From assembly GCA_903871235.1 (NCBI GenBank), contig CAIQGA010000020.1, positions 1 to 63,963 on the forward strand: 63,963 bases of DNA, read 5' to 3'. Position 1 is the first letter of the stretch, and the number at the start of each line of letters is the position of its first letter. The translations under genes and the position numbers were made by a program. The notes under the pieces were generated by a model. The model did no database searches. It had not been told where the DNA came from and was given only the letters and a program-made list of their open reading frames with translations. Positions 13,697-31,723 of the stretch are shown here, piece by piece. The stretch is from an uncultured Chlorobiaceae bacterium. Lineage in GTDB: Bacteria; Bacteroidota; Chlorobiia; Chlorobiales; Chlorobiaceae.

Positions 13697-13909
13697 ATGG
13701 CACATACAATTTCAGAGTGGCTTTTGCCACTGTTCGCATGGGCTCAGTTCTCACAAGAGTCAGCAACTCCCAAGAGTTCCAGACTGGAAACGTTGAGAGC
13801 AGAACGCACCGGCAAAGATTCCCGGAAAAGCATCCATCTCCCTTTGTCTCCTGAAGAGGAGATCATCATTCAGATGGGAAAAGAGCACCCGACTCTGTTT
13901 CTCACATGA
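13697..13909 (+). CDS. Short ORF ending in a repeated peptide (uncertain)
   Basis: A 70-codon frame whose last 18 codons (EEEIIIQMGKEHPTLFLT then stop) recur at 15124-15180 as EEEIIIQMAKEHPTLFLT. The shared part is in the 65-bp direct repeat. At the second site the frame is closed upstream by a stop, so there it is only a fragment. The 70-residue protein resembles no family I recognise and has no clear ribosome site; it may be a decayed gene end. Confidence 0.25.
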   Translation: MAHTISEWLLPLFAWAQFSQESATPKSSRLETLRAERTGKDSRKSIHLPLSPEEEIIIQMGKEHPTLFLT

Positions 13910-13916
13910 GGGTGTG
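13852..13916 (+). repeat. 65-bp direct repeat, left copy
   Basis: Matches 15123-15187 at 61 of 65 positions, in the same orientation, about 1.27 kb apart. The repeats bracket the AbiEi-like gene and its truncated partner. Both copies keep the reading frame of an 18-residue peptide ending at a stop codon. Confidence 0.85.
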
Positions 13917-14150
13917 CGCTTATCTCTCGTTTTTTTTGCCACCATGTTATTTTTCAGCATCGGTTATGAGCTGAATGATCAATCTGCTTATAAACGGGTA
14001 ACCCACGTTGTTCCCTCATGGGAGTGTAAAGCATTGCTCAGTTTTTTTCTGTGAATGCTTTACAGTTAAACCCTTTTCACAACCTTCACCACATTCCTGA
14101 TGGCACTGAGCTGTCAAGAATGAGCGGGAAATATGGGATCTTTTAAAAAG

Positions 14151-14182
14151 TGTCGTATATTTGTGTAATTTGCTTGTCGTAT
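14151..14182 (+). promoter_or_regulatory. Candidate operator: two TGTCGTAT direct repeats
   Basis: TGTCGTAT occurs at 14151-14158 and 14175-14182, spaced 24 bp start to start, just upstream of the AbiEi-like start at 14210. AbiEi antitoxins are known to repress their own operon from repeats upstream; assignment here is inference. Confidence 0.35.
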
Positions 14183-14209
14183 TTTGACATTTTAAAACTC
14201 TACGAAAAA

Positions 14210-14623
14210 ATGAGTAGATACGGAAGTCTTGAATACAAGATTATGGCAAGAATAGCGCGAAAGAAATGTGCTGTTTTCGTGCGCGAAGATTTTCAGGATT
14301 TGAGCGACTACGATCAGGTAGGGCGTGCGCTGCGAAAAATTACAAGAGAGGGGCGACTTGTTCGCTTGGGCTATGGTGTTTATGCCAAAACAAAAAAATC
14401 AACCATCACGGGTGAGCTTGTTCCCGCAGCACCATTGCCTCTTCTGGCAAAAGAGGCGCTGGCACGTCTTGGCATTCAAACCCTTCCCTCCCGTCTGGAA
14501 CAGGACTATAACGCAGGCAAGACAACTCAGGTTCCTACTGGCCGATTGATAGCCGTCAGGGGTCGCATAACCAGAAAAATCGGATATGGTGGTGCTTATG
14601 TCAGTTATGAATCGGCGACCTGA
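14210..14623 (+). CDS. AbiEi-like / DUF6088 antitoxin-type protein
   Basis: A 137-residue protein from ATG 14210; an earlier GTG at 14150 would add 20 unconvincing residues. The N-terminal winged-helix pattern (CAVFVREDFQDL, then VGRALRKITREGRLVRLGYGVYAK) is that of transcriptional-regulator antitoxins of the AbiE type, where it binds the operon promoter. The following part carries the PxxLAKEALARLG and GRLIAVRGRITRKIGYGG segments seen in the family. Its 3' end overlaps the next ORF by 38 bp. A complete AbiEii nucleotidyltransferase is absent, so this may be an orphan antitoxin. Confidence 0.65.
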   Translation: MSRYGSLEYKIMARIARKKCAVFVREDFQDLSDYDQVGRALRKITREGRLVRLGYGVYAKTKKSTITGELVPAAPLPLLAKEALARLGIQTLPSRLEQDYNAGKTTQVPTGRLIAVRGRITRKIGYGGAYVSYESAT

Positions 14624-14978
14624 AAAAGAACTTTTTGAGGAGGTGGCACTTCTCAAAAACATCGTTCCCTCTCTGGTTCGCCATATCCACGATCTGGCGT
14701 TATTGAAAGAGCTGGCCTTGGCCAATACGAATTTCTCTGCACTGGTTTCTGCTCCGATGCAGGAAGATGACCGACGATCAAAAAACAATCCTTTATTTGC
14801 AGGATTACCCAAGGCTGAAAAGTTTCGGCAACTGCTTGCGATATTGGAGACAGAAAAAGAGAAATACACCCGTGAATATGATCTGTTTGTTAAAGGCGTC
14901 TCGTATGCTGCAGAAGGGGAAGTTCCCGATTTCACTGCGGCGGTAAAGGCTGTTGGCGAACTTGTGCAGAAAACCTGA
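14586..14978 (+). pseudogene. Probable C-terminal remnant of an AbiEii-type nucleotidyltransferase toxin
   Basis: A 130-codon frame overlapping the end of the AbiEi-like gene. It lacks the nucleotidyltransferase core (no GSxx(10)DxD-type motif) but contains RHIHDLALLKELA and the tail KYTREYDLFVKGVSYAAEGE, which read like the C-terminal helical region of AbiEii proteins (HxYDLxRL, then DYxxMxxMIFGE). The simplest reading is that the toxin lost its catalytic N-terminal half by deletion, leaving antitoxin plus tail. If so it is non-toxic. The family call is tentative and based only on pattern. Confidence 0.45.
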
Positions 14979-15122: not shown

Positions 15123-15187
15123 TGAAGAGGAGATCATCATCCAGATGGCAAAAGAGCACCCGACACTGTTTCTCACATAAGGGTGTG
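15123..15187 (+). repeat. 65-bp direct repeat, right copy
   Basis: Partner of 13852-13916 with four mismatches. It lies between the truncated AbiEii-like ORF and the 3' end of the convergent Roco-TIR gene. Outside the repeat the 14979-15219 interval shows no gene. Confidence 0.85.
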
Positions 15188-15219: not shown

Positions 15220-17853
15220 TTACAATAATTCGGTAATTCTTTCGATCAATGCAAGATATTGTTCTTCCTGCTCTTGTTCTGAAAGTTTGGAGAGCGGTGT
15301 ATCGGGATCGTTTACGGCTTGAAATATTGAGAGTTTACTTTTGTTGAATCGGCACGGTTCGACGATAAGTGGCAAAATGGTTGTTCCGTTATTTTCGGCA
15401 GACTCAAGGAGCGATGGCAGTTCGTTGTTCATGATAAAATCGGATGCAAGAAAATCGGTGCTGACCAACATGATGCTGGCTTTTGCAGATGCAAGAGCAG
15501 CTTCGATTTCTTTTTTCCATTGCCTCCCGGCTTTTATTCTTGTGTCATCCCACACATCCACATCAATTCCTTCATGCTTCAGCACCTTGAGATGAACCTG
15601 CAAGCGCTTCAGATACGCATCATTTGTGTGCGAGTAGCTGACAAATATGGTTATTCTTTCTGTGGGATTACGCCGGCCTTGTCGTGGGTATTTCTGTTTT
15701 TCACTCAGGACGTCATCAATCAACTGCCGGACATTGACCATGTCAAAGCTATTGCCACATTCAATTTCCTGTTTGCCTTTTTCAATCCGACGTTTGAGAT
15801 CTGAATACTTGAAGAAATATGTGCTTTCTGATCTGGAGCATTCCCGACAATTGCAGGGAATCAACTTATCAACCTTCATTTTTTCATACTGCGCATTGAT
15901 GCCTTCCAGTTTTTCGGCAATGATGGTCATAAAGTCCTGTTTGTTCTTGCCGGAGAGACGTATTACGATACGACGGGCATCATAGCTTTCACTGACTTCG
16001 GCTATAGCACTGTCACGCTCAAGCAGACAACCACGCTTCCATACCAGATCATGATTTGTAATGTAGCGGTGCATCTCCACAATGAACTGCGACATAATTC
16101 CTTTCGGCATAAACAGGTCGTATGCATACTGCAGATAGAGATTACCAGTTGAATCCCAGGGATATTCTGGTCTGGCTGATGGCAGTTTTTCAGGTACGAT
16201 GTAGTGGCCTGATCTGTCGATCTCATAAGTCAGGAAGAATTTCTGCATAAGCCTTAGAAGCTCGTCACGAAGCTCTGCATATTCCTGCTCATGCCAGATG
16301 GTTTCTGCATCATCCCGGCTGAATCGGCCATGCTGCTTGTCAAGCAAGGGATGATCGAGCATCTTATATACGGCATGAGTTGCCCAATTTGGTTTCAGGA
16401 AAATAGTCTTGTTGAGGAGGCTGTCATCCTGAAAGTGGAGAAAGACACCAATATCATGAAAATACTGACTCAACACGAGAGCGTCCTCTTTCTTCGCGAT
16501 TCCCTCTGCACCACAGAGTGCAAGATATTCCTGCCTTGAGATGGTGTGATTCTGTTCCTCGTCAAGGAGTTTTCTGACACCTGTCCACCGCGCTGGCACG
16601 GGACTTCCAATGTGTGATAACCTTTTTATTTGATACTTTATGGCCAGTTCCAGTTTACAAAGACGTTCTTTATCAGGTTCTGCAAAATCCACAGCAAGGA
16701 TATCGCTGATGTTCGTAAACCGTTGCCGCAAAGCGCCAAGATCAATATCTCGTTTGCGCTGCTGCTTTTCATTCGAGACAATGATAAGTGGGCTGCTGCC
16801 TCCGAACATCTCAATCAAATGCAACCAGTAGTTGAAATCGGTATCCTCCCTCCGATTATCCACGACCAGCACATACAATGAACGGTTTGAGAGAAAAAAA
16901 CGATGAGTTGCCTTGTAAATTTCCTGCCCTCCAAAATCCCAGATATTCATCCTGAACTCTTTTCCTTTGAGTTTTTCTGCGTCAAGTTCCGGAAAATCTT
17001 CCTGCCTGAGAGAGAAATAGTTCGGTTTGACATCAATACCAAGTGTGGTTTCATCATCATTAGGCAATGGAGCTTCATGGTTTTCAAGCTTTCGGGCAAG
17101 GGTGGTTTTACCTGCACTCGGTTCACCGACAATAAGTAGTTTTGCTTCAAAGAGGTAATCACTGTTTTGTTCTTCCAATTGCTTGAAATAATTTCTGATA
17201 GCCTCTTTTCCCTGTTTGACTATTTCCGGTGGTGGGGTTTCCAGTGGATTACCATAGAATGTGATGAAGCCTGTACAATCAGAAGAATTAGCATACGGTT
17301 TTTTATTTTCCCACTGAATACCCATTTCAAATTCAGTAATCCATGAGGGCAAATTTTTAATGCGATTACTGGAGAGATAAAGGTCTTTCAACTGTTTTCG
17401 GTCTTCAAGTGGACCAATATTACTAATATAATTACCACCAATGTAAAGATATAAAAGATTATTCAATTTAGATAGAGGAGCAAGATCACATATTTGATTA
17501 TCCCATGCAGAAAGCAATAAAAGCTTGGTAAATGTTGAAAGAGGGCTAAGATCGCTTATTCGATTTTTGGCTATGTAAAGATGTGTAAGGTTATCAAACT
17601 GGACAAGGAGACCAAGATCATATAATTCATTATCAGATATATCAAGGGTTGAAAGGTTTTTTAATAATTTTAACGGATTAATAATTCTTTTAAGATCATT
17701 TATGTGACAATTGTATAATCCGAGTCCTGTTATTTGATTATTGATATTTACCACATAACCCAATTCAAAGAAATCCTCGTCAAATTTCTCAAGCCGATCC
17801 AATTTAATACCAAGTTCTTTTTCAATCTGCCTCAAATAATCAAAGTCATTCAT
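15220..17853 (-). CDS. Roco protein with C-terminal TIR: LRR-Roc-COR-TIR
   Basis: An 877-residue multidomain protein. Residues about 40-175 are leucine-rich repeats (LSTLDISDNELYDL, LTHLYIAKNRISDL and similar). The Roc GTPase has a P-loop GEPSAGKTT (243-251), switch-II WDFGGQE (305-311), and a degenerate G4 (NEKQ near 361). A COR-like region follows, with a cysteine pair CNCREC near the end. Residues 732-877 are a TIR domain: FVSYSHTND, DVWDDTRIKAG, SIMLVSTDFLASDF and a candidate catalytic Glu811 in NNELPSLL. Roco proteins are GTP-dependent dimers; bacterial TIR domains commonly cleave NAD+ in immunity. It is the last gene of the type I restriction operon, 58 bp after hsdM. A role as a GTPase-gated NAD-depleting sensor is inference. 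Confidence 0.9.
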   Translation of the reverse strand: MNDFDYLRQIEKELGIKLDRLEKFDEDFFELGYVVNINNQITGLGLYNCHINDLKRIINPLKLLKNLSTLDISDNELYDLGLLVQFDNLTHLYIAKNRISDLSPLSTFTKLLLLSAWDNQICDLAPLSKLNNLLYLYIGGNYISNIGPLEDRKQLKDLYLSSNRIKNLPSWITEFEMGIQWENKKPYANSSDCTGFITFYGNPLETPPPEIVKQGKEAIRNYFKQLEEQNSDYLFEAKLLIVGEPSAGKTTLARKLENHEAPLPNDDETTLGIDVKPNYFSLRQEDFPELDAEKLKGKEFRMNIWDFGGQEIYKATHRFFLSNRSLYVLVVDNRREDTDFNYWLHLIEMFGGSSPLIIVSNEKQQRKRDIDLGALRQRFTNISDILAVDFAEPDKERLCKLELAIKYQIKRLSHIGSPVPARWTGVRKLLDEEQNHTISRQEYLALCGAEGIAKKEDALVLSQYFHDIGVFLHFQDDSLLNKTIFLKPNWATHAVYKMLDHPLLDKQHGRFSRDDAETIWHEQEYAELRDELLRLMQKFFLTYEIDRSGHYIVPEKLPSARPEYPWDSTGNLYLQYAYDLFMPKGIMSQFIVEMHRYITNHDLVWKRGCLLERDSAIAEVSESYDARRIVIRLSGKNKQDFMTIIAEKLEGINAQYEKMKVDKLIPCNCRECSRSESTYFFKYSDLKRRIEKGKQEIECGNSFDMVNVRQLIDDVLSEKQKYPRQGRRNPTERITIFVSYSHTNDAYLKRLQVHLKVLKHEGIDVDVWDDTRIKAGRQWKKEIEAALASAKASIMLVSTDFLASDFIMNNELPSLLESAENNGTTILPLIVEPCRFNKSKLSIFQAVNDPDTPLSKLSEQEQEEQYLALIERITELL

Positions 17854-17911
17854 AATGGTCAGGTTTTGATTGTAAAAATCCCTTCCAAATAAATCGAATT
17901 AAATCAGCTTC

Positions 17912-19396
17912 TTATACCTTGCTCAGCACCCCCAGAATCTCCTGAAAGCTTGCAAGTCCGGCCTCAAGGTTTTCGATGATCTCTCCAGCCAGTAGATCCG
18001 GATCAGGCAGATTATCAAGATCAGCGAGGCTTTTATCTTTGAGCCAGAAGATGTCGAGGTTGGTTTTGTCACGGGCGACAATCTCTTCGTAGGTGTACTT
18101 CCGCCAGCGCCCTTCGGGGGTTTTGGGGGTGAAGTTTTCCTTGCGTTTATGGCGGTTTTCGGGGTTGTAGCACTCGACAAACTCTTGCAGGTCAGATGAC
18201 TTCAGTGGGCTCTTTTTCAGGGTGTGGTGCACGTTGGTGCGGTAGTCGTAGAACCAGACTTCGCGAGTCCAGGGATCTTTATGGGCGGGCATCACGTCGA
18301 AAAAGAGGACGTTGGCTTTCACGCCTTGTGCGTAAAAAATGCCAGTCGGGAGCCTCAGAATGGTGTGCAGCTCGGTGGTTTCGAGCAGCTTTTTTCGGAC
18401 AAGCTCTCCTGCACCGCCTTCAAAGAGGACGTTGTCGGGAAGTACCACGGCGGCTTGGCCGTGAACCTTCAGGACGGTGTGGATGTGCTGCAAAAAGTTG
18501 AGCTGCTTGTTGGAGGTTATGGCCCAGAAATCCTGCCTGTTGTAGACAAGACTCTCTTTCTCCTGCTCCTCGTCATCGTTGGTGAAGGTCATGCTGCTCT
18601 TTTTGCCGAAGGGTGGATTGGTGAGCACGTAATCGTAGCGGATGCCACCATCAGCAAGCAGCGCATCAGCGGATGAGACTGCGGCAATGCCGTCGAGTTC
18701 GCCGATGTTGTGCAGAAACATATTCATCAGGCAGAGTCTGCGCGTGCCGGGCACAATTTCATTGCCGCCGAAGGTGCGATGTTTCAGAAATTCCTTGTCG
18801 CTCCGGTCGAGGCTATAGCGGTTGGTGATAAAATCGTACGCCTTCAGGAAAAATCCACCGGTGCCACAGGCCGGATCAACAATGCTCTTCATCGGCTCCG
18901 GGCGGATGCACTCCACCATCACCTCAATCAGGGCACGGGGCGTGAAGTACTGGCCTGCTCCGCTTTTGGTATCTTCGGCATTCTTTTCAAGTAGTCCTTC
19001 GTAAATTTCGCCTTTGACGTCAGCGCCCATCATCACCCAGCTCTCCTTGTCGATCATGTCAACTACCTTGTAGAGCATTGCCGGATCGGCAATCTTGTTC
19101 TGCGCTTTCAGGAAGATCTGGCCGAGCATCCCCGGCTTTTTGCCAAGATCGCGGAGCAAGCTGGCGTAGAGCACTTCAAGCTCTGCCCCACGTTTCTCCT
19201 TGAGCTTTGCCCAGGTGTACTCCTGCGGAATGTCGATGGTGCGGCTGTAGGGCGGTTTGCTGTACTCATCAGCCATTTTCAGAAAGATGAGAAAGGTCAA
19301 CTGTTCGAGATAATCGCCATAGCTCACGCCGCTGTCGCGCAGGACGTGGCAGAACGACCAGACTTTCGAGATAATGGCTGACGGGGTATTGGTCAT
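17912..19396 (-). CDS. hsdM: Type I restriction-modification methyltransferase subunit HsdM (system 1)
   Basis: A 494-residue N6-adenine methyltransferase subunit. The N-terminal HsdM helical domain (SKVWSFCHVLRDSGVSYGDYLEQLTFLIFLKMADE) precedes the SAM-binding DPACGTGGFFLKAYDF motif and the catalytic TNPPFGKKSS (NPPF) motif. With HsdS it methylates the recognition site; with HsdR it forms the restriction complex. The gene follows hsdS after 21 bp and precedes the Roco-TIR gene. Confidence 0.95.
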   Translation of the reverse strand: MTNTPSAIISKVWSFCHVLRDSGVSYGDYLEQLTFLIFLKMADEYSKPPYSRTIDIPQEYTWAKLKEKRGAELEVLYASLLRDLGKKPGMLGQIFLKAQNKIADPAMLYKVVDMIDKESWVMMGADVKGEIYEGLLEKNAEDTKSGAGQYFTPRALIEVMVECIRPEPMKSIVDPACGTGGFFLKAYDFITNRYSLDRSDKEFLKHRTFGGNEIVPGTRRLCLMNMFLHNIGELDGIAAVSSADALLADGGIRYDYVLTNPPFGKKSSMTFTNDDEEQEKESLVYNRQDFWAITSNKQLNFLQHIHTVLKVHGQAAVVLPDNVLFEGGAGELVRKKLLETTELHTILRLPTGIFYAQGVKANVLFFDVMPAHKDPWTREVWFYDYRTNVHHTLKKSPLKSSDLQEFVECYNPENRHKRKENFTPKTPEGRWRKYTYEEIVARDKTNLDIFWLKDKSLADLDNLPDPDLLAGEIIENLEAGLASFQEILGVLSKV

Positions 19397-19417: not shown

Positions 19418-20848
19418 TTACCTGGCAGTTCGTTTTTCAGCCCTGATGCGCTCAAGAAGCTTGTCGGCAGGCTCCCAGTCCGGGGCGTTACGGGTAATCT
19501 GAAGCTCCTCCAGGCTGAGCAGCTTGCCCTCAAAAGCTTTTTTGAGAATACTTTGCCGCAAGGCTTCCGCTTTTTCAACCGACTCCTTGATGGTGGATTC
19601 CATGTTATCGCAAACCGAGAGGCGCGTTTCGATTTCCTGCACGATTTGGGATTGCTCTTGTGGGGAGCAGTAGGGCAATGGGTAACTCTTGAGTTTCTCC
19701 CCATTGATGTTTGACTGATTCACCCCGTCAGTCTTTACTGAATTACCATAAACCTTGGCTGGGTGAGAATTCAGCCAGAAATTTAGATACTTACAGTCCA
19801 GTAATACAGCTATTTGATTGATTCGAATGAGATATCCTGCAAAAATAGCAGGCATTTCGCCATTATAGATTGCTGTTTTTCCAACGAGTTCCGGGCTGTT
19901 GGTGCGATTAAAAAGGACATCGCCTTTTGTTAATGAATATTTTGAAATATCGGCTTTCTCATTGGTATAGGCCAAATTATTCCACTCAATTCGACCTTGC
20001 TGAATATTTCCCATTCGTATGACAGGAACATCTCCGTTATCGAGTGATTTCGTCGAAGTACCATATTCAACCCCAAGAGTCAACTCACCTAATTTTAACC
20101 ACGTCCACCCATCCGGCAGTTCAGGTAATGCAATAAGCGCAGCCTGAGTAAGCGGAATAACCGGCTTGAGTTTTTTGCCCGAAAGTTTTGCTGCTTGCGT
20201 CCGTTCGGCTTTGATGGTTTCAAGCAGTTCCTGTGCTGACGGGTGGCTGGTTTGTTGCTCACGCCATGCTTTGGTGAGTTCACCTTCAAAGGCTTGTTTC
20301 AGAACGGCTTGCCGATAGATCTTAAGCTGTTCCTGAGCTTTTTTCAAACAGGCAATCCCGTTATCAAGTTCACTGAAAAGCTGCTCCAGTTTTGCAACAA
20401 TGGCTCGCTGTTCGGGGAGTGATGGTAAACTAATCTTAGTTGCCTCAAATGTCTTTTTTGTAACATGGACCATTCCTGATCCATGTGCAGAAGAATACAA
20501 TTCTCGTGTTATTTTGTCGAGGAAGTAATAAAGATATAGCTTTTCTATAAATGAATTTGGATTGACAAGAAAAATATGCTGATTTAGCCAAGCATCATCC
20601 TTTTTCCATATGTATGCACCGAGAGAGGCCGACCAAGCAAAAAGTAAATCTCCTTTTTTTACGAGATACCTTTCTTCAAAAACTTTATTACTATAATGGA
20701 ACTTTGATTTTTCGTCATTCAAATTTTTAATCCTAATGATAGGTAAACCTTCGTTTCCCCACTCTGCCGGTGTAAACGCACGACCATTAATATATTCAGC
20801 GACAGTTCCTAATGTTGTGCACACACGATGATTACTTATGATTTTCAC
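19418..20848 (-). CDS. hsdS: Type I specificity subunit HsdS (system 1)
   Basis: A 476-residue specificity protein if it starts at GTG 20848 (VKIISNHRVCTTLGTVAEYING). The frame is open to an ATG at 20959, but that would overlap the preceding gene by 94 bp, so the GTG is preferred. There are two target-recognition domains, each followed by a conserved helix: LPSLPEQRAIVAKLEQLFSE and YPLPYCSPQEQSQIVQEIE. The first half ends in QAVLKQAFEGELT and the second in SILKKAFEGKLL, the usual internal repeat. It sets the DNA sequence recognised by HsdMR. The target sequence cannot be predicted from here. Confidence 0.92.
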   Translation of the reverse strand: MKIISNHRVCTTLGTVAEYINGRAFTPAEWGNEGLPIIRIKNLNDEKSKFHYSNKVFEERYLVKKGDLLFAWSASLGAYIWKKDDAWLNQHIFLVNPNSFIEKLYLYYFLDKITRELYSSAHGSGMVHVTKKTFEATKISLPSLPEQRAIVAKLEQLFSELDNGIACLKKAQEQLKIYRQAVLKQAFEGELTKAWREQQTSHPSAQELLETIKAERTQAAKLSGKKLKPVIPLTQAALIALPELPDGWTWLKLGELTLGVEYGTSTKSLDNGDVPVIRMGNIQQGRIEWNNLAYTNEKADISKYSLTKGDVLFNRTNSPELVGKTAIYNGEMPAIFAGYLIRINQIAVLLDCKYLNFWLNSHPAKVYGNSVKTDGVNQSNINGEKLKSYPLPYCSPQEQSQIVQEIETRLSVCDNMESTIKESVEKAEALRQSILKKAFEGKLLSLEELQITRNAPDWEPADKLLERIRAEKRTAR

Positions 20849-20865
20849 TACACAGCGCTTAATTG

Positions 20866-21597
20866 TTAACTTACAAACAATTTCGGTATTCCCGGTTTTT
20901 GATCCCAGATAATCCCGTCCAGCGTACGACCAGCTTTCTTTTTGTTGAACCCGCCCCACTGCTTAAAGAAAAACGGCACATTGGCGGCAATGCATTGTTC
21001 CCTGATTTCCTGAACCCAATCAGGCTTCATGGGGCGGGCATTTCTGCCGCTTTCACCACCGACAATGACCCAGTCGATATCTTGCAAGTCCAGTTCCGAC
21101 AAGGGGCCAAGCAGAGGCTCACAAGATAAAAATTTTACCCGTGCATCAGTTTCCCTAAGCCTGTCAATTCGCGGCATGGCCTGCTGATTTTCCACCGATA
21201 CACCCATCCAGATATTGTGCGACCAATCCAGCCATCCTTCACTGTCATAATATTTTAAAACATCAGCTCGCTTGGTCAGTACCTGAAATACGTGATGCGG
21301 ATTCTGCTGCATAACGTTGAACACCTGCCGGATGTAGTCAATCGGTACACCCTTGTGGAAGAGGTCGCTCATGGAGTTGACAAAGACCACTCTCGGCTTT
21401 TTCCATCTGAATGGTTCCTGAAGCGTTTCGGGATGCAGAGTAAGCTTGAAGCCATTGCGGTACTTTTCAACTCCCATTGCTTGAAGCCGCTTTGCGAATG
21501 CCTCTGCGTAGCAGAACCTGCAACCATCAGAAACCTTGTCGCACCCCGTAACGGGGTTCCAGGTCATTTCCGTCCACTCAATATGAGACTGCGCCAT
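20866..21597 (-). CDS. DUF5131 / phage Gp37-Gp68-like three-Cys protein
   Basis: A 243-residue protein starting [19 protein letters not shown]. The cluster C-x6-C-x2-C ([11 protein letters not shown]) followed by YAE, with [15 protein letters not shown] and [14 protein letters not shown], is the signature of the DUF5131 family, which has a radical-SAM-like look. The next upstream gene is a TcmP-like protein, the partner named for co-occurrence with such three-Cys proteins. The ATG overlaps the tcmP stop by one base. Enzymatic activity is unproven; placement inside a restriction operon suggests a defence accessory or DNA modification role (inference). Confidence 0.82.
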
Positions 21598-22718
21598 TAT
21601 TTTGTTTTTAAATAAAACGTTACCTTTTTAGGACTATTTCGCCACTCTTTGTGATTCAAGTAAAACGAACCCTTTTTCGCTGGTTCACCATTGCTTTTTA
21701 AGACTGACAATGTATCCTCAATTTGCCAAGCCTTCAAAACTTCATTCGTGTGAATAGGTAAATGCCCTTTATGTAACGTAAACTCATAAACATCTTTGTT
21801 TGTTCGTGAATTTGAAAGAAGATACGCCCTTAATTCGTCTTCAAATCTAAAGGTAATGGAAGATTTATGGCCATCAAAAAGATACTCAGTGCGCATAAAA
21901 CGCCACACTCTACCTTCATTATTGTCTATAACCCATTTTGCCTCAAGCATTTTTTGAAAACCATAGATATGGCTTGTGAAAAAAAATAAACAATAATGCT
22001 GACCGGCATCTCTTTCAATGATAAATGTATCTACGTAATAGTCATTGCCTAAGCGGAGCTTAAAATGGGATTTTAAGTTTTCAATAAAATCAATACCAGT
22101 GGAGCTTATTGGCCACTCGTCAAGAGGGACAAGCTCTTCTATTAGGCATTGCAAACATTTAGGAGTTCCGTTAGATTCAACACGAAACATAAATTGTGTG
22201 GGGAGAAAAAGTAAAACCTCCGCTTTTTTTGTTGCCAACAGAGATTGAATATCAGCAAAGCGCACGTCACGATATCCCCAAGGATCTATAAAAACAAATG
22301 CTTTCGCTGAAGGGCTTAATTTATTTATCTGAGACGATACACTTTCCAACGCATTATTATACTCGCAACATGAATAGCTTATCGTGATTTTTTTTGAATG
22401 CCCAATTTCCTCAATAAAAGTTTTAAGTTGATTAATGTAATCCGGGTTATTATCATTAAAAAAACAATGGTAATTGACTTTGCTACAAAAGCCAGATTGT
22501 AATACTCGTTCTATTTCTTCAAGCATTACGATGGGGCTTCCAAAGCCACCATCATCATATACGCCATGACCGCAGTATACATCGAATAAAAAAATGTCAG
22601 AAAAAAATGGCGAATTACTCAATACCTGTAAATATTTTGCTAAATATTCTTTTAAAAGTTCGATTTTTGCCTTTGAATGTGGCTGTAAATTATTCTGCCA
22701 ATCTTTGATTATTTTCAT
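21597..22718 (-). CDS. tcmP: Three-Cys-motif partner protein TcmP-like
   Basis: A 373-residue protein matching the TcmP pattern: an early [18 protein letters not shown], then [20 protein letters not shown], reminiscent of a SAM-binding motif I, and [12 protein letters not shown]. The family accompanies the three-Cys DUF5131 protein, which follows directly here (1-bp overlap). The ATG overlaps the TGA of an hsdR 3'-end fragment (sequence GCATGA), showing that tcmP originally followed hsdR with coupled translation. The N-terminal part is AT-rich compared with the surrounding hsd genes. Function is unknown; a methyltransferase-like role is possible. Confidence 0.78.
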
Positions 22719-22869: not shown

Positions 22870-24591
22870 TCAAAACCGAAACCCAAATAGTCCACCCTCT
22901 TCCTGAGCGTCAGTGAGTACAACAGGAAGAATATGGTCATGAACATTGAAGCCGGGAGTTGTTTCCTTGAATGCGTCGTCTTCGTTCATGGTGACAATGT
23001 ACTGGAACCCAAGTTTTTCCGCAGTCTCTGCTCCAACTTTGAGTGCACTTGCAATCTGGCGACCATCGACACCGTCAAAAAGGTGGCTGTCGTGAACGAG
23101 AATGCCGGGGCCGATGCCACGCTTGGCACAAAGCCGCATAAGCATCATGTCGAAACAGAAAATCTGCATATTCTTTATGCCCTTGCTGCGAGAGCCTTGC
23201 ATGGGGAACTGGAATTGAGGACCGTTGGAAGTTTCATCCACAGTCATGCTTCCTGCTGATTCGTAAAGGCGTTTGGAAGTCTCCTCAAAAGCCAGAATGG
23301 CATCGGAGAGACGTTCTTTTTGTTCTGAAAAATCCCTGCGGAGGCGGAGGGTAAGGCGATTGCGCTCAATATCGAGCTCGTTTTTTGTGCCTTCCAGTTG
23401 CTCTGCGGCGGAGAAGCGCTGGCGCAGTAACTCCACTTCAGCCTCTTTTCGGGCCGTTTCCGTCTGGAGCCTGGAAAACTGATCGAGCGCACCATGGCTT
23501 TTCAAAAGATTCATTACCACTGAACGGCGTTCGTCGAGAGATTGTTTTTCCTGGTCACGTGCAAGGATTCGCTCCCTGGCAGATTCAAGTTCACCTGAGA
23601 GGTAGTCGCGACGGTTGCGAATAACTGATTCGTGGAAAAGCCGCACCTCATCATAGCGCTTGACGGCAACTCCTGGCAGTGAGATGCCTGCCTCAGCATA
23701 GATGCTCTCCAGTTCAGCAATTGGTGGCGGAGATTCTGAATGCATGGCGGTTTCCAAATCCCGGATAGAGCCGGTGTCAATGACATTGGCATTTGAAATA
23801 TCGCTGATCTTACGGGTGAGTTGGTCAGCCTCTGATTCAAGCTCGGAGTATTGAGGCAAAACACGGAACGCCGATAATTGGGTTTGCATTTCTTTGAGAT
23901 GAGCCTCGGCGATAGTCACTTGAGTGCGCAGGTCGGAGGTTTTTCCGATGATGCTCCCAAAAGCACCGGTTCCTGCTGCCTTTTTGAGTTCTTTCAATGT
24001 TTTTTCACGATCACGAATCCGCTGCCATTCGCTGGCAATTTGCCAATCAAGACCAAGGAGATAAAGAAGAGCAATCTGAAGGTCTCCAGGCTGCTGCATC
24101 GTGGCATGCTTTTCCGGAGTGGTAAAAGCCCCGCTTCGCTGGCGACGCACGAAATAGGGGAACAGCGAACGAAAGGTCGGTTTTCGGCCTTCTGTTTTTG
24201 GAAGGTTGTGCAATGCAAACATTTTTTCACCAAGCAATGTCGTCCACTCGGTGTTGGTTATGCTGCTCTTGTTGTTAAGAAAACCGTTGCCTTCCAGATG
24301 CAGTTTTGACTTCTCTTTCCCGGAACGTTCAGTTGTAATTTTTTCTCCACAAAGGTCGAAAGTAATACCAAAGGTTTCGTTGACAAGAGCTTCAGAACGA
24401 AAAAGTGACTCTTTCTCTGCATCTGCGCCAGAAAGAAAATCGATAATTTCAATCAAACTGCTTTTGCCGGCCCCATTTCGGGTTTGCTTGTTTGTGGCTC
24501 CAGCTTCCTTTTTGGCAATGAGAATATTCAGCCCAGAGTGAAACTCAAGCTCCTTGAAGCTGGGCAAGCTGCTGAAAACACGGTAAATCAT
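22870..24591 (-). CDS. ABC-three-component (ABC-3C) system ATPase, DUF2326
   Basis: A 573-residue Rad50/SMC-like ATPase. A Walker A NGAGKSS lies at residues 39-45, after an insertion (KEAGATNKQTR) typical of DUF2326. The centre (about 190-460) is rich in heptads and probably forms coiled coil. The C-terminal half has MQIFCFDMMLMRL and GILVHDSHLFDGVDGRQ, the Walker B/D-loop region of the family. In ABC-3C conflict systems such an ATPase is thought to sense nucleic acid or protein complexes and unleash an effector. The start overlaps the upstream small gene by 4 bp. A copy of its last 37 codons exists in the relic at 29809. Confidence 0.88.
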   Translation of the reverse strand: MIYRVFSSLPSFKELEFHSGLNILIAKKEAGATNKQTRNGAGKSSLIEIIDFLSGADAEKESLFRSEALVNETFGITFDLCGEKITTERSGKEKSKLHLEGNGFLNNKSSITNTEWTTLLGEKMFALHNLPKTEGRKPTFRSLFPYFVRRQRSGAFTTPEKHATMQQPGDLQIALLYLLGLDWQIASEWQRIRDREKTLKELKKAAGTGAFGSIIGKTSDLRTQVTIAEAHLKEMQTQLSAFRVLPQYSELESEADQLTRKISDISNANVIDTGSIRDLETAMHSESPPPIAELESIYAEAGISLPGVAVKRYDEVRLFHESVIRNRRDYLSGELESARERILARDQEKQSLDERRSVVMNLLKSHGALDQFSRLQTETARKEAEVELLRQRFSAAEQLEGTKNELDIERNRLTLRLRRDFSEQKERLSDAILAFEETSKRLYESAGSMTVDETSNGPQFQFPMQGSRSKGIKNMQIFCFDMMLMRLCAKRGIGPGILVHDSHLFDGVDGRQIASALKVGAETAEKLGFQYIVTMNEDDAFKETTPGFNVHDHILPVVLTDAQEEGGLFGFRF

Positions 24592-24836
24592 GGCTGTTTC
24601 CGGCTTAGGAGGCCATCCTGAAGCTCAATCGCTCCCAAGAGAAACAGGAGGTCAAGAGTAAGGACGTAGGCATCGTAGCGCAGGGTGGTTTTTTTTCTCT
24701 CTGCGGTAATGACCGAACGGGTAAGCTCTTCCCAGAGTGAAGAGACTGTCCTTGGCTGTGCCAAATGAGTGAGCAAGCGAGCTCCGACGGTGAGCAGTGC
24801 TCGTTCTTGCGATAAGTGTTTGGTAGGCAGAATCAT
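24588..24836 (-). CDS. ABC-3C system middle component (MC6-like)
   Basis: An 82-residue protein, MILPTKHLSQERALLTVGA, then TVSSLWEEL and YVLTLDLLFLLGAIEL. This matches the small middle component 6 of ABC-3C systems, a winged-helix-like adaptor linking ATPase and effector. It overlaps both neighbours by 4 bp (ATGA-type junctions), indicating a tightly coupled three-gene unit. Confidence 0.85.
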   Translation of the reverse strand: MILPTKHLSQERALLTVGARLLTHLAQPRTVSSLWEELTRSVITAERKKTTLRYDAYVLTLDLLFLLGAIELQDGLLSRKQP

Positions 24837-25735
24837 TCTATAACGTCTCTGGGTTCCTCAAAAATATCGCAGCGCTCAAAATAGTATGCAAGCACAGTCA
24901 ATACCGCCATCTGATGTTCTGGTGTCCCGATCTGGTTTCCGCCAGCCCACGTTTGTAGTTCATTGAATATTTTGTTCGGGTGCATTGTTTCTCGTAAATC
25001 CTCGTATTTTTTTCGGAAAGAAACTGCCAGACGCTCTCCCAGAGTTTCATCATGCCATTTTTCAAGGAATGCGGAAACTAACGGAGACTTTGCCAAGCCA
25101 TATTTGATCAGAGTACTTACGGTTTCAGAGAGGTTGTTGGCCTCGATCTTGCCAGGAGGAATGGCTTTCACGGTCGCACTGGTTGGCATTGTTTTGCATT
25201 CCAGTGATTCCAGCACGACTTGAATCTCTTTAAATCCGAGTCGCGCCTTTGTCTCTTCATCAGGAGCATGACCAAACCAGGATATCCGATCGTCCAACGA
25301 GAGTCTGCAAAAAATCTGCCGAAGTTCTTCCAGTCCCCAAGGCTCCAGAATAATGCCCGCATTGACATGCTCAAACTTGAGCAATAGCTCATGAATATGG
25401 GGCGGAAGTCCATCGGTTGCGTTATGGACGAAGGTCCATTTGTCGAAGTACCTGCTCCAATGCTCTTTTGCACCCTCAAAATCTTCCGTAATTTTGGCAA
25501 TAGCTCTCGCTGCATCCATTTCGTTGGGGGCATAAACCTGAAAAAGACGACGATCTGACTTGAGAAAGCCATCATTTTTTCGGTCACCAATATTGCCCCA
25601 TGGTCGGCAGGCCATAAAATCTGCTTTGTAGGCCAAACCCATCAATCGCTCAAAGAATGTTTGAAACTCGTTTCCCTTGGTTCGGAGATACAATAGTTCA
25701 AATTTATGTTCATAATAAGCGTCTTGCAGATTCAT
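24833..25735 (-). CDS. ABC-3C system effector-type protein, putative REase-fold nuclease
   Basis: A 300-residue protein, first gene of the three-gene cassette. Near the N-terminus GNEFQTFFERLM is followed by GDRKNDGFLKSDRRLFQVYAP (residues 50-70): an acidic residue, Asp, then a Q-x-Y in the place where restriction-endonuclease-fold enzymes carry Q/E-x-K. Family members of ABC-3C effectors often have this arrangement. The C-terminal half (about 200-300) is a helical region resembling the conserved C-terminal domain of ABC-3C effectors. Nuclease activity is inferred and the catalytic Lys is not obvious. Confidence 0.72.
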   Translation of the reverse strand: MNLQDAYYEHKFELLYLRTKGNEFQTFFERLMGLAYKADFMACRPWGNIGDRKNDGFLKSDRRLFQVYAPNEMDAARAIAKITEDFEGAKEHWSRYFDKWTFVHNATDGLPPHIHELLLKFEHVNAGIILEPWGLEELRQIFCRLSLDDRISWFGHAPDEETKARLGFKEIQVVLESLECKTMPTSATVKAIPPGKIEANNLSETVSTLIKYGLAKSPLVSAFLEKWHDETLGERLAVSFRKKYEDLRETMHPNKIFNELQTWAGGNQIGTPEHQMAVLTVLAYYFERCDIFEEPRDVIE

Positions 25736-25909: not shown

Positions 25910-28705
25910 TTATCCCGTCAACACCTCGTTAAGTTCATCAATAATCGCCCCCGTCCTCTCTCCAAAAAGTTGCCACATTTTACCCCGGCCTCCATGCGCG
26001 TTGAAGGGGGTGAGGTCGAGATCGTCAGGCTCGATATGAATGCTGGCGGCAATGTGCTCCTTGATCATGCGCAGCCACTGCATCTGCTCTTCGGTGAACT
26101 TTTCGCCTGCGCCGGAGTGCTTGTTGAAGATCCATTTTTTGAAATTGGCGTCAACGGTTTTGTCGTAGAGGGTCAATACCGTGTCGATGCCGATGACGCG
26201 GCGGATGAGTGAGACGAGGGCGATGAGCTCGTTTTTCGGGCTGGTGCCATTGACCTGTTCGAGTTGCTCGTAAGCGTGCCAGATGCGCATTGGAGCCAGG
26301 GCGGGTTTGTCGGCTTTGAGGCGCTCAAACAGCTCGCGGATCATCCGGTAGGTGACCGTGCGATGCTGAAAGGGCTGGTTGTAGAAGATGGTGAGCGCGG
26401 TGATTTCATCTTTGTGCGCTTCAAGGTAGCTCTTGAACTCCCCGATCAGTGCTGTTGCCTTGTCGGCGCTTTCGGTGGCCCATTCACTTTTTGTGACCAG
26501 GTCGAGGTTGATGGTGTCAATAATCTGTTCATGCACGCGGCGGACGGTGTCGATAAACTCGTTCAGAGCTCCGTTAAAGGTGGAGCGTGCTTCGTGCAGG
26601 AGCGCCCGCCGTGCCTCTTCCCGCAACTGATGTGTTTCGGTTGAGGGGTTATCGCTATCCTCTTCTACAAGCGCTCCATGTAACGATTGTGCTTTCAGGC
26701 TGATAGCGTCGGGGTTCCAGGCGTCGAACAGTTCGCGGACAACCTGGTTGATGCTTTTGCCGCCCGTTTTTTCGATAAAGGTTGCCCGTTCCTCTTCGGT
26801 GATCTGCCGGTCGAGCCGGGCAAGGCGGCTGGCAAGGGAGATGAAGAGATCTTCCTCTTCGGCGCCGAAGGTGATGGCTTCAAGCAGCTCCTTCAGTGAA
26901 ATTGTGGGCTTGCGCTCAAGGGGTCGACTGTCGGTTTTCAGCGATCTGGTGACGCCGATGGCATCGACTATGACAAAGTGGGTTTTGGCGGAGGTGACGG
27001 ATGGGGTCACTTTTTTGAGGTCATCAAAACAGATGGTGCGTGTGCCTCGGCCTATCATCTGCTCAAAATAGTTGCTGCTTTTGACATCGCGCATGAAGAG
27101 CAGGCATTCGAGCGGCTTGACGTCGGTGCCGGTGGCGATCATGTCAACCGTGACGGCTATTCTGGGGTTGTACTCGTTGCGAAAGCGGGCGAGCAGTGAT
27201 TTGGGATCTTCGTCCGACTTGCAGGTGATTTTTTTGCAGAATGCGTTGCCTTCGCCAAACTCTTCGCGGATACTTTTGATGATATCTTCGGCATGACTGT
27301 CGGTTTTGGCGAAGACAAGGGTTTTGGGCACCTCGGTTCGTCCGGGGAACAAGATCGGCACTATCTCGCGAAAGGTCCGGATGATGTTGCGGATCTGGCT
27401 TGGATTGACGACATCACGGTCGAGCTGTGTGGACGTATAGGTGATGTCCTCGTCGAGCTGCTCCCACCGTTTGCGGCGGGAGAGCTTTTCCCGTTTGTCG
27501 ATAAATTCTCTCGCCTTGATTTCTGCGCCGTTTTTTGTGATCTCGGTTTCGATGAGATAGACGCTGTAACCCACATTGACGCCATCGGCTACGGCGCGTT
27601 CGTGGCTGTATTCGCTGACGATGTTTTCCTGGAAAAAGCCGAAGGTGCGCTTGTCGGGCGTTGCGGTCAGACCGATGAGAAAGGCGTCGAAGTAGTCGAG
27701 CACCTGCTGCCAGAGGTTGTAGATGGAGCGGTGGCACTCGTCGATGACGATGAAGTCAAAAAATTCTGGTGGAACCTTTGCGCTGTAGGCTACCGGTACC
27801 GGCTCTTTTGGCTGCCAGCGTTTTTCCGCCGGGTTCTCCTCCTCCAGCGAAGGGTCAAGCTCCTCGCCTTTCAGAATGGAGTAGAGGCGCTGGATGGTGG
27901 TGATGCAGACCTTACTGTCGCTGGCGATGGCGCTCGACTGGAGCCGCTGCACGTTGTAGAGTTCGGTAAACTTGCGGTTGTCGTCATTGGGTGTATAGGC
28001 CCGGAACTCCTGCTCAGCCTGTTCGCCGAGGTTGCGGGTATCGACCAGAAAGAGTATTCGTTTGGCGTCGCCGTGTTTGAGCAGGCGGTAGATAGAGGTG
28101 ATGGCGGCAAAGGTTTTGCCTGAACCGGTTGCCATCTGGATGAGCGCTCTCGGGCGTGCGTCACGGAAGGAGCCTTCGAGGTTGTTGATGGCGATGCTCT
28201 GGCACTCGCGCAAACCACGTTGGTTCAGCTCGGGAATGGAGTGCAGGCGTGCTCTGAGGCTCTGCTCCTTGCCAAGCCACTCGCGGAAGGTTTCAGGGCG
28301 GTGAAAGGTGAACACCGGCCGTGAGCGGGGTTTGGGGTCCCGGTAGTCGGTAAAGTGGGTCAAGATGCCGGTGCTTTCGTAGACGAAGGGGAGCGGGGCG
28401 TTCTGGAGGTGCTTCAGTTTGCTTGTTGCATATCCTGAAGATTGATCTTCTACAGAGGTGAGGCGCTCCCCCTCCTCCTCCCGTTTTGCCTCGATGATCC
28501 CGACAGGCTTGCGATCAACAAAGAGGACGTAGTCGGCCTCTGAGCCGTCCTGCATCGGGTAATGGCGCACCGCAATGCCCGCCGAAACATGCCAGTTGAT
28601 CTGGCTCTTCTCTTGAACAGCCCACCCCGCCGCCGTGAGCTGGCGGTCGATGGCGTCACGAGCTTTCTGCTCGGGCATCTGGTTCAGAGAGTTTTTATCC
28701 GGCAT
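25910..28705 (-). CDS. hsdR: Type I restriction subunit HsdR (system 1)
   Basis: A 931-residue restriction/translocase subunit. The N-terminal nuclease domain shows EADYVLFVDRKPVGIIEAKRE (Asp59, Glu72-x-Lys74, a PD-(D/E)xK site). The motor follows: Walker A MATGSGKTFAAITSIYRLL (191-209), VIDECHRS (DECH box), GLTATPDKR, VTVDMIATGTDV and MIGRGTRT. It translocates DNA and cleaves unmethylated DNA as part of R2M2S. It is the first gene of the defence operon. Its 3' end and an internal part are duplicated elsewhere (22719-22862; 29809-30289). Confidence 0.95.
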   Translation of the reverse strand: MPDKNSLNQMPEQKARDAIDRQLTAAGWAVQEKSQINWHVSAGIAVRHYPMQDGSEADYVLFVDRKPVGIIEAKREEEGERLTSVEDQSSGYATSKLKHLQNAPLPFVYESTGILTHFTDYRDPKPRSRPVFTFHRPETFREWLGKEQSLRARLHSIPELNQRGLRECQSIAINNLEGSFRDARPRALIQMATGSGKTFAAITSIYRLLKHGDAKRILFLVDTRNLGEQAEQEFRAYTPNDDNRKFTELYNVQRLQSSAIASDSKVCITTIQRLYSILKGEELDPSLEEENPAEKRWQPKEPVPVAYSAKVPPEFFDFIVIDECHRSIYNLWQQVLDYFDAFLIGLTATPDKRTFGFFQENIVSEYSHERAVADGVNVGYSVYLIETEITKNGAEIKAREFIDKREKLSRRKRWEQLDEDITYTSTQLDRDVVNPSQIRNIIRTFREIVPILFPGRTEVPKTLVFAKTDSHAEDIIKSIREEFGEGNAFCKKITCKSDEDPKSLLARFRNEYNPRIAVTVDMIATGTDVKPLECLLFMRDVKSSNYFEQMIGRGTRTICFDDLKKVTPSVTSAKTHFVIVDAIGVTRSLKTDSRPLERKPTISLKELLEAITFGAEEEDLFISLASRLARLDRQITEEERATFIEKTGGKSINQVVRELFDAWNPDAISLKAQSLHGALVEEDSDNPSTETHQLREEARRALLHEARSTFNGALNEFIDTVRRVHEQIIDTINLDLVTKSEWATESADKATALIGEFKSYLEAHKDEITALTIFYNQPFQHRTVTYRMIRELFERLKADKPALAPMRIWHAYEQLEQVNGTSPKNELIALVSLIRRVIGIDTVLTLYDKTVDANFKKWIFNKHSGAGEKFTEEQMQWLRMIKEHIAASIHIEPDDLDLTPFNAHGGRGKMWQLFGERTGAIIDELNEVLTG

Positions 28706-30289: not shown

Positions 30290-30397
30290 AAAGTTTCTGT
30301 GATTGTGTAATAAAATTGTACATTATTTGCAGATAAGCAGATTCCCGCAAGTAAATGTTGCTCCGTTATTACAAATTCTTTATTGCTCGTTCAGAAC

Positions 30398-31723
30398 ATG
30401 AGATATGGATTTTTTTGTCGTGATGCGCTTCGCCTGTCATTGGTCGCAGTGCTGTTATTGTTCGCTCTGGATGCTCAAGCCATGCAGATTTTTGTGAAAA
30501 CACTTACCGGCAAAACAGTCACCCTTGAAGTTGAACCGAGCGACTCCATTGAAAATGTAAAGCAGAAGATTCAGGATAAGGAGGGGATTGCGCCTGACCA
30601 GCAAGTATTAATTTTTGCTGGCAAGAAGCTTGAGGATGGACGAACACTTGCCGATTACAATATCCAGAAAGAGAGTACGCTGCACCTTGTGCTGAAGTTA
30701 ATGCCTTCATTAGATGAAGATGCGACAATAAAAAACCTTGTGGCAGCCCAGGCTTCTGCTGCCCGGCGATTTACTGAAACACAGAGCCGTAATGTGTGGT
30801 ACCACCTCGAATCATTGCCTGCCGATTTTGGTGCAGGGTACAAGAGCGCTGCGGCTTCAGCTATTAAACCAGAGGAAGTTGTTTCGCCGGTCGATAGAGG
30901 TGCGGAGTTGGCTTTCTGGTCAACCGGTGCGATAGATTTTGGTTCGGGGTTTGATGGGGCGAGTCGCTTTTCAGAATCGGGAGGAACCATTGGGCTTGAT
31001 ATTCCGCTTGATTCATGCTGGATTTTCGGGGTAGCAGTGGGCTATGGCAGTGGCAGGACAGAGGTCGATGATCGCGGTTCGGAGGTGAAAGCCCGGCAGA
31101 TTACCTCTATGGCCTATCTGTCGTTTAGTCCAGCCTCTCCGTGGAAACTGGATCTCATGGCTGGCTATGGTGATATCACTTTTCACAATACCCGTATCTC
31201 TACAGAAGGCACGGTTTATCCTGGCGTCCGTGATGGACATATCTACTTTACCGGGCTTTCTTCGAGTGGTTCGTTCTCTCTCAAGAGTTTTATGTTGCAG
31301 CCTTATCTACGCATTGAAGCCAGTACAACACGAATCGATGCCTCTTCCGAAAGTGGTGACAGTCAGTTGGCGTTAAGCTATGATAATCTGGATATGACGG
31401 ACGGCTCCGCCTCTTGTGGTCTCAGCGTTCATCGTGATATTCCTCTTGCTTCCGGCACGATCACTTTTTCATGCAGAGCACAGTACAGCCGGAATTTTAA
31501 TGGAGAGAATATTCAGGATATTTTTTACTCAAGTACAGGTGTTTCCGGAGGACTTTATTCGACGCGGAGTATGAGTAGTGCACAGAACGTCGGTACGTTT
31601 GGAGTCGGTTTTGGATACCTGGCGCACAATGGATTTCTTCTGGCGGGAGAATATCTCGGTATGCTGGGAACCGACGGCTATAGAGGAAACAGTATTACAG
31701 CCACTCTTCTGATCTCTTTGTGA
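30398..31723 (+). CDS. Ubiquitin domain fused to an autotransporter-like outer-membrane beta-barrel
   Basis: A 441-residue protein from ATG 30398 (TTG at 30383 would add 5 residues). Residues 1-28 are a signal peptide ending LFALDAQA; signal peptidase would cut exactly before [10 protein letters not shown], residue 1 of ubiquitin. Residues 29-101 equal eukaryotic ubiquitin at 65 of 73 positions (changes: I13V, T22S, A28Q, P37A, R42V, Q49K, S57A, R72K). All seven lysines and Leu8-Ile44-Val70 are kept. The C-terminal RGG is replaced by MPS, so conjugation is impossible. After a linker (about 102-165) the rest is a beta-barrel with alternating strands ([48 protein letters not shown]). No E1, E2 or deubiquitinase is nearby. 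Origin by transfer from a eukaryote is likely (inference). Confidence 0.92.

Follow-up and report, generated by a model that had tools for sequence, protein, structure and literature searches.

Directly behind the hsdM gene of a type I restriction-modification (RM) island, an uncultured Chlorobiaceae bacterium carries a gene, here called roco, whose product joins leucine-rich repeats (LRR), a Roc-COR GTPase unit and a TIR domain in one chain. This position raises the question of whether the product is an immune-type receptor, and whether it is tied to the restriction enzyme that precedes it or only travels with it. The window that we have analysed is the whole stretch of 63,963 nucleotides and represents one contig of a 3.3 Mb genome in 234 contigs; its nearest relatives are Chlorobium/Chlorobiaceae genomes. 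The features of the locus are collected in Table 1.

Table 1. Features of the roco gene and of the type I RM island in the window.
Feature	Positions	Strand	Basis and remarks
LRR-Roc-COR-TIR (TIR-Roco) gene, 877 aa	15220..17853	-	ORF, Pfam domains, AlphaFold pLDDT 88
N-terminal region with leucine-rich repeats, residues 1-230, G+C 33%	17164..17853	-	LRR matches, identity, G+C
Roc GTPase, residues 235-400; P-loop 243-250, DFGGQ 306-310	16654..17151	-	Pfam Roc, conserved motifs
COR-A/COR-B and linker, residues 401-735; CxCxxC...C 667-699	15649..16653	-	Pfam, Cys motif
TIR domain and C-terminus, residues 736-877; candidate catalytic E811, codon 15421-15423	15223..15648	-	TIR_2, fold matches, AbTIR alignment
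hsdM-roco spacer, 58 bp	17854..17911	-	Without terminator-like site; relics in G050, G030 and G017, about 20 bp in G057
hsdM, type I RM methylase	17912..19396	-	N6_Mtase 1.6e-68; orthologues 97-98% identical
hsdS, specificity subunit	19418..20959	-	Methylase_S 2.9e-39; 99.6% identical in G043, about 51% in G003/G011
DUF5131 (PDC-M30B/M41B), island cargo	20866..21597	-	Pfam/PADLOC
Three-Cys-motif partner TcmP (PDC-M30A), island cargo	21597..22718	-	PADLOC
ABC-3C ATPase (DUF2326/CTD10, PDC-M68B), island cargo	22870..24591	-	Pfam/PADLOC
ABC-3C middle component MC6	24588..24836	-	Pfam
CTD10/PDC-M68A protein, ABC-3C partner	24833..25735	-	Pfam/PADLOC
hsdR, type I restriction subunit	25910..28705	-	EcoEI_R_C, ResIII, HSDR_N

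The roco ORF is intact from ATG to stop and is read from 17853 to 15220. Thus, the first-pass annotation was right to call it a complete LRR-Roc-COR-TIR gene, to which the minus strand, omitted there, has to be added. In Pfam the product shows, in this order, LRR_4 (residues 65-106, 1.3e-12), Roc (238-362, 2.4e-23), COR-A (420-555, 2.8e-37), COR-B (571-714, 2e-39) and TIR_2 (736-845, 2.6e-14), and all five matches exceed the curated cut-offs. Roc and COR are adjacent and both over the cut-off, which places the protein among the Rocos. The GTP-binding motifs are intact and conserved in relatives (P-loop G243-EPSAGK-T250, WDFGGQE 305-311), and the G4 position reads NEKQ instead of NKxD, its N-E-K being mostly conserved among the relatives compared. 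The motif CxCxxC...C between residues 667 and 699 (15757-15857, minus strand) is found in 41 of 42 related Rocos and is absent from CtRoco and from the divergent Chlorobium TIR-Rocos; it is possible that it forms a metal site between COR and the effector.

The LRR is the fastest-diverging segment: compared with orthologues it is 44-51% identical, whereas most of Roc, COR and TIR reaches 63-87%. Its length varies between orthologues (the G057 protein has 1079 aa), and its G+C content of 33% differs from that of the remainder of roco (44%) and of hsdM (53.5%). Divergence, length change and A+T-richness are as expected for a sensor under change.

The AlphaFold model of the whole protein, made with 42 sequences, had a pLDDT of 88 and a pTM of 0.71. 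A structure search matched its LRR-Roc-COR part to CtRoco of Chlorobaculum tepidum (6hlu, Z 32.9, 630 residues at 4.7 Å) and to MbRoco2 (4wnr, Z 32.7), both of which share this core with roco, and its Roc-COR unit to CtRoco 3dpu (Z 31.4, 459 residues at 2.8 Å). Roc-COR and LRR chains dominated this search and TIR chains were absent among the matches listed, so the TIR was folded and searched separately (pLDDT 90, pTM 0.85). It matched the TIR-APAZ protein of SPARTA (Z 16.4, 2.1 Å over 130 residues), the plant receptors RPP1 and RUN1, SARM1 (Z 14.8) and AbTir (Z 14.3, 26% identity), and we are confident from the model that the domain has a TIR fold, nearest to the SPARTA, plant NLR, SARM1 and AbTir NADases.

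The candidate NADase glutamate seen by the first-pass annotation is E811, and it withstood comparison: in the sequence alignment it pairs with the Glu of the NAD(+) hydrolase AbTIR, within TNYEL, and it is kept in all 19 ungapped sequences among 22 homologues across phyla, as well as in 20/20 sequences of the TIR alignment. The fold match, this conserved and AbTIR-aligned residue and the intact P-loop and DFGGQ motifs make NADase activity of the predicted domain likely, and a conserved Glu in a TIR fold falls short of proof of it. A TIR 82% identical to that of the window is also found with an unrelated N-terminus in a 654-aa protein of G027 (L038:9811-11775), whose gene starts 8 bp behind that of a GAF-domain protein; judged from sequence, this is TIR modularity, with swapping of the effector.

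The LRR-Roc-COR-TIR architecture is already known and widespread. In prokaryotes, Kaur et al. (2021; eLife e70394, PMC8195603) describe a group of conflict systems whose core is AP-GTPase-COR. The LRRs at the N-terminus of these proteins evolve rapidly, the effector domains at the C-terminus are of at least 24 kinds, one of which is TIR, and the LRR-AP-GTPase-COR-effector proteins are predicted there to be counter-invader systems. The roco product shares with this class the fast-evolving N-terminal LRRs, the AP-GTPase with COR and the C-terminal TIR, and belongs to it by architecture, while CtRoco and other relatives carry other C-termini. A TIR hidden in the tail of CtRoco was considered and rejected, as its last ~155 residues gave no match to the TIR profile. 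What appears to set the gene of the window apart from the class as described in 2021 is its location directly after hsdM in a type I RM island, in a slot where relatives have relics. Our literature search retrieved no paper that tests a TIR-Roco against phage and no biochemical data for this protein class.

Plant TIR-NLRs and bacterial STAND NLR-like proteins also combine an LRR sensor, a nucleotide switch and a TIR effector in one chain, and the TIR folds of RPP1 and RUN1 are close to that of roco. However, roco uses a Roc-COR GTPase and not a STAND ATPase, with the LRR at the N-terminus and the TIR at the C-terminus. The NLR-like plan in which a Roco GTPase replaces STAND, as first proposed for this gene, is therefore supported in its anatomy by the domain plan, whereas its novelty was overstated, the same plan having been predicted as a counter-invader in 2021 (PMC8195603). 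With Thoeris ThsB, SPARTA TIR-APAZ and AbTir the protein has the TIR family and fold in common (PADLOC matches its TIR to ThsB1 at 1.5e-20), but its TIR is fused to LRR-Roc-COR, and the neighbours scanned include no SIR2/SLOG effector, Ago or APAZ partner and no ThsA, whose adjacency would mark a Thoeris system.

The genes upstream form a type I RM island in which cargo genes separate hsdR from hsdS. Their order on the minus strand is hsdR, three ABC-3C genes (the CTD10 protein, MC6 and the DUF2326/CTD10 ATPase), tcmP, DUF5131, hsdS, hsdM and roco, so the earlier term "restriction operon" was right in kind, and the gap between the co-oriented hsdM and roco is exactly the 58 bp that had been reported. 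The ABC-3C set (22870-25735) looks complete and recurs in the islands of G055 and G017. The pair of TcmP and DUF5131 (20866-22718) corresponds to the PADLOC candidate PDC-M30, and a different TcmP-like gene of 295 aa replaces it in G011, G041, G027 and G063. Scans of the whole region gave 7 promoter-like sites against 6.4 expected, none of them in the spacer. Of terminator-like sites there was 1, located inside the roco gene, where 2.9 were expected, and both scans are uninformative at these rates.

Several observations concern the flanks. A 60-bp repeat occurs in copies 93% identical just past roco (15123-15182, minus strand) and beyond AbiE-like genes (13852-13911, minus strand), with further copies in L202, L199 and L036 and, in G043, directly after hsdM; it may have a role in rearrangement of the island. 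On the plus strand, 14150-14978 holds a 157-aa ORF beside a 130-aa protein that matches only the C-terminal third of AbiEii (PADLOC 1.6e-18), which looks like a truncated AbiE relic, and 30383-31723 holds an ORF in which a ubiquitin-like N-terminal stretch is fused to a C-terminus that may be autotransporter-like.

Orthologues of hsdM at least 90% identical are present in 14 Chlorobium genomes, several of which share one chromosomal site. Across the orthologous islands hsdR and hsdM are stable (80-98% identical), and hsdS and the cargo vary and are swapped freely. Among 12 informative islands the slot behind hsdM holds a Roco in 3 and a relic in 3, the rest having other genes or none. The gene is intact behind hsdM in two genomes (G000 and G003), and in G011 it is broken, its two parts being on different contigs and foreign sequence adjoining the breaks; the spacings are 58, 5 and 28 bp, the 5-bp gap of G003 being due to an hsdM ORF about ten codons longer than the others. 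In G050, G030 and G017 the spacer and approximately the first ten Roco codons remain and the rest is lost. G057, conversely, has an intact Roco and no hsd genes. It still contains ~20 bp of the spacer and a gene related to one of the island cargo genes, and has apparently lost restriction and kept the receptor. In G057 a protein with an eCIS core domain (L034:13549-15525) is the neighbour of the Roco, again at this chromosomal site. In G043, hsdS and hsdM are 99.6% and 97% identical to those of the window, the Roco is absent, and the sequence that follows roco in the window starts within ~15 bp after hsdM. The hsdM-roco arrangement is thus old at this site, and the roco gene comes and goes, like accessory defence genes. 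The search for such hsdM neighbours that had been proposed at the outset succeeded within Chlorobium (two intact, one broken, three relics) and gave no restriction gene at about 19 loci outside the family.

The divergent Chlorobiaceae TIR-Rocos are only ~28% identical, and three of them also lie behind DNA-modification or defence genes. The preceding gene encodes an N6_N4 DNA methylase in G026 (44 bp away), a type ISP enzyme in G052 (82 bp) and the HerA of a type III res-SIR2-HerA group in G032 (62 bp). Two sites are found amid housekeeping genes, one in G057:C42 (L040) and the other beside ahcY in G008/G125 (L043/L132). Directly behind an RM gene are 3 of the 6 Chlorobiaceae sites in a strict count, or 4 of 6 with G032. 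As a control we used 60 other TIR_2 genes of Chlorobiaceae, and among the 57 with a visible upstream neighbour 2, at most 3, are preceded on their own strand by an RM enzyme no more than 200 bp away. The strict count differs from this background with a Fisher p of 0.005-0.009, a value that is suggestive and not conclusive because the sites were defined post hoc and the counts are small. The repeated placement of TIR-Rocos behind DNA-restriction genes in Chlorobiaceae looks real, and it is the eroded relics and this recurrence behind several RM types that are new here.

Outside the family the picture differs. About 20 of the best 80 loci of one genome scan carry a TIR, in Chlorobiaceae, Anammoxibacter, Chloroflexi, cyanobacteria, Bacteroidota, Desulfobacca and Methylovulum, and a COR-A domain of any kind is present in 12 of 81 Chlorobiaceae genomes. 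At ~19 TIR-Roco loci outside Chlorobiaceae, restriction or methylase models matched none of 75 neighbours in the PADLOC tally, which serves as a check on Pfam tallies that cover 25 families and that rare RM genes could escape. The neighbours there are ordinary or mixed, some loci adjoining sensor kinases or housekeeping genes, so that a defence role outside Chlorobiaceae is argued from architecture.

The first-pass annotation had coupled roco to the type I system as a back-up suicide response for when restriction fails. In such a scheme HsdRMS would hold the TIR-Roco inactive or tuned, and the receptor would fire when a phage anti-restriction factor disables RM. The idea is plausible by analogy with PrrC, a suicide-type guard tied to the type I RM system EcoprrI (PMC10286901), although PrrC is an anticodon nuclease with no established sequence or mechanistic relation to roco. 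It also agrees with the age of the hsdM-roco order, attested by the intact, broken and relic copies and by the spacer relic of G057, with the tight spacing and the lack of a detected terminator in the gap of the window, and with the enrichment of RM genes before the Chlorobiaceae TIR-Rocos. Nevertheless, G057 retains its Roco without RM genes, G043 has a nearly identical hsdS and hsdM without the Roco, and the ~19 outside loci gave no RM match; these cases argue against obligate coupling, which we reject as a universal rule, and what stands of the earlier claim is the association above chance in Chlorobiaceae. Moreover, the RM enzymes are of several types (I, ISP, orphan-like MTase) and therefore offer no single conserved partner surface, and defence genes tend to cluster anyway. 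On balance, we regard a guard of HsdRMS as unlikely. A broader version, in which DNA-modification enzymes of Chlorobiaceae (type I, ISP and others) would have gained LRR-Roc-COR-TIR receptors as guards on several occasions, with an LRR or COR that reads either an anti-restriction factor or the state of the RM complex and a Roc switch that frees the NADase TIR when restriction is defeated, appears to us more doubtful still.

It is instead probable that the RM operon is simply an expressed, mobile landing site and that Roco and RM are independent, which G057, with a Roco retained in the absence of RM, favours. The modular island with its freely exchanged hsdS and cargo, the changing content of the slot behind hsdM and the mosaic base composition all fit this explanation, which is the default version of the reading that we favour below, and the recurrence behind different RM types above the background of other TIR genes is what it accounts for least well. 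A Roco for signalling or development, with the TIR as scaffold or adaptor, would be compatible with the sensor kinases and housekeeping genes beside some outside loci and with our literature search, which turned up no bacterial Roco, CtRoco included, whose physiological role has been demonstrated. Such a role is improbable for the gene of the window, given the catalytic-type Glu retained without exception in ungapped sequences, the patchy, accessory presence in the family, the repeated erosion and the location in an RM island.

We therefore favour, with a probability of about 0.72, a cytoplasmic immune-type receptor with an LRR sensor, a Roc-COR switch and a TIR effector, carried as cargo in a slot of the RM island; most likely, as far as domain content and models can indicate, it is an abortive-infection NADase receptor. 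The N-terminal LRRs would sense a trigger, presumably phage, and it is possible, by analogy, either that they recognize a phage molecule directly or that they keep watch over the RM enzyme in the manner of PrrC with EcoprrI. The Roc-COR unit would act as a conformational or oligomeric switch. In CtRoco, GTP binding turns dimers into monomers and makes the LRR pivot on the linker that joins it to Roc (PMC5714945, PMC11052575), and by analogy with this hinge motion and monomerisation a GTP cycle may gate roco and free or assemble its TIRs. Once assembled, the C-terminal TIRs would consume NAD+, and the infected cell would be arrested or killed by its loss. The gene itself would travel as cargo in the slot behind hsdM; the type I RM island around it is modular and occupies a hot spot that is fixed in the Chlorobium chromosome.

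Bacterial Rocos serve as structural models for LRRK2. A Roco with a NADase-type effector in an RM island would provide the Roc-COR GTP cycle with a direct and assayable output, NAD+, and the TIR-Roco makes it possible to examine whether Rocos of bacteria serve as immune receptors and whether any of them guard restriction enzymes. Its placement behind DNA-restriction genes makes the idea of a backup suicide alarm testable and, if the reading of repeatedly recruited guards were true, Chlorobiaceae would possess an RM-guarding receptor with a GTPase switch.
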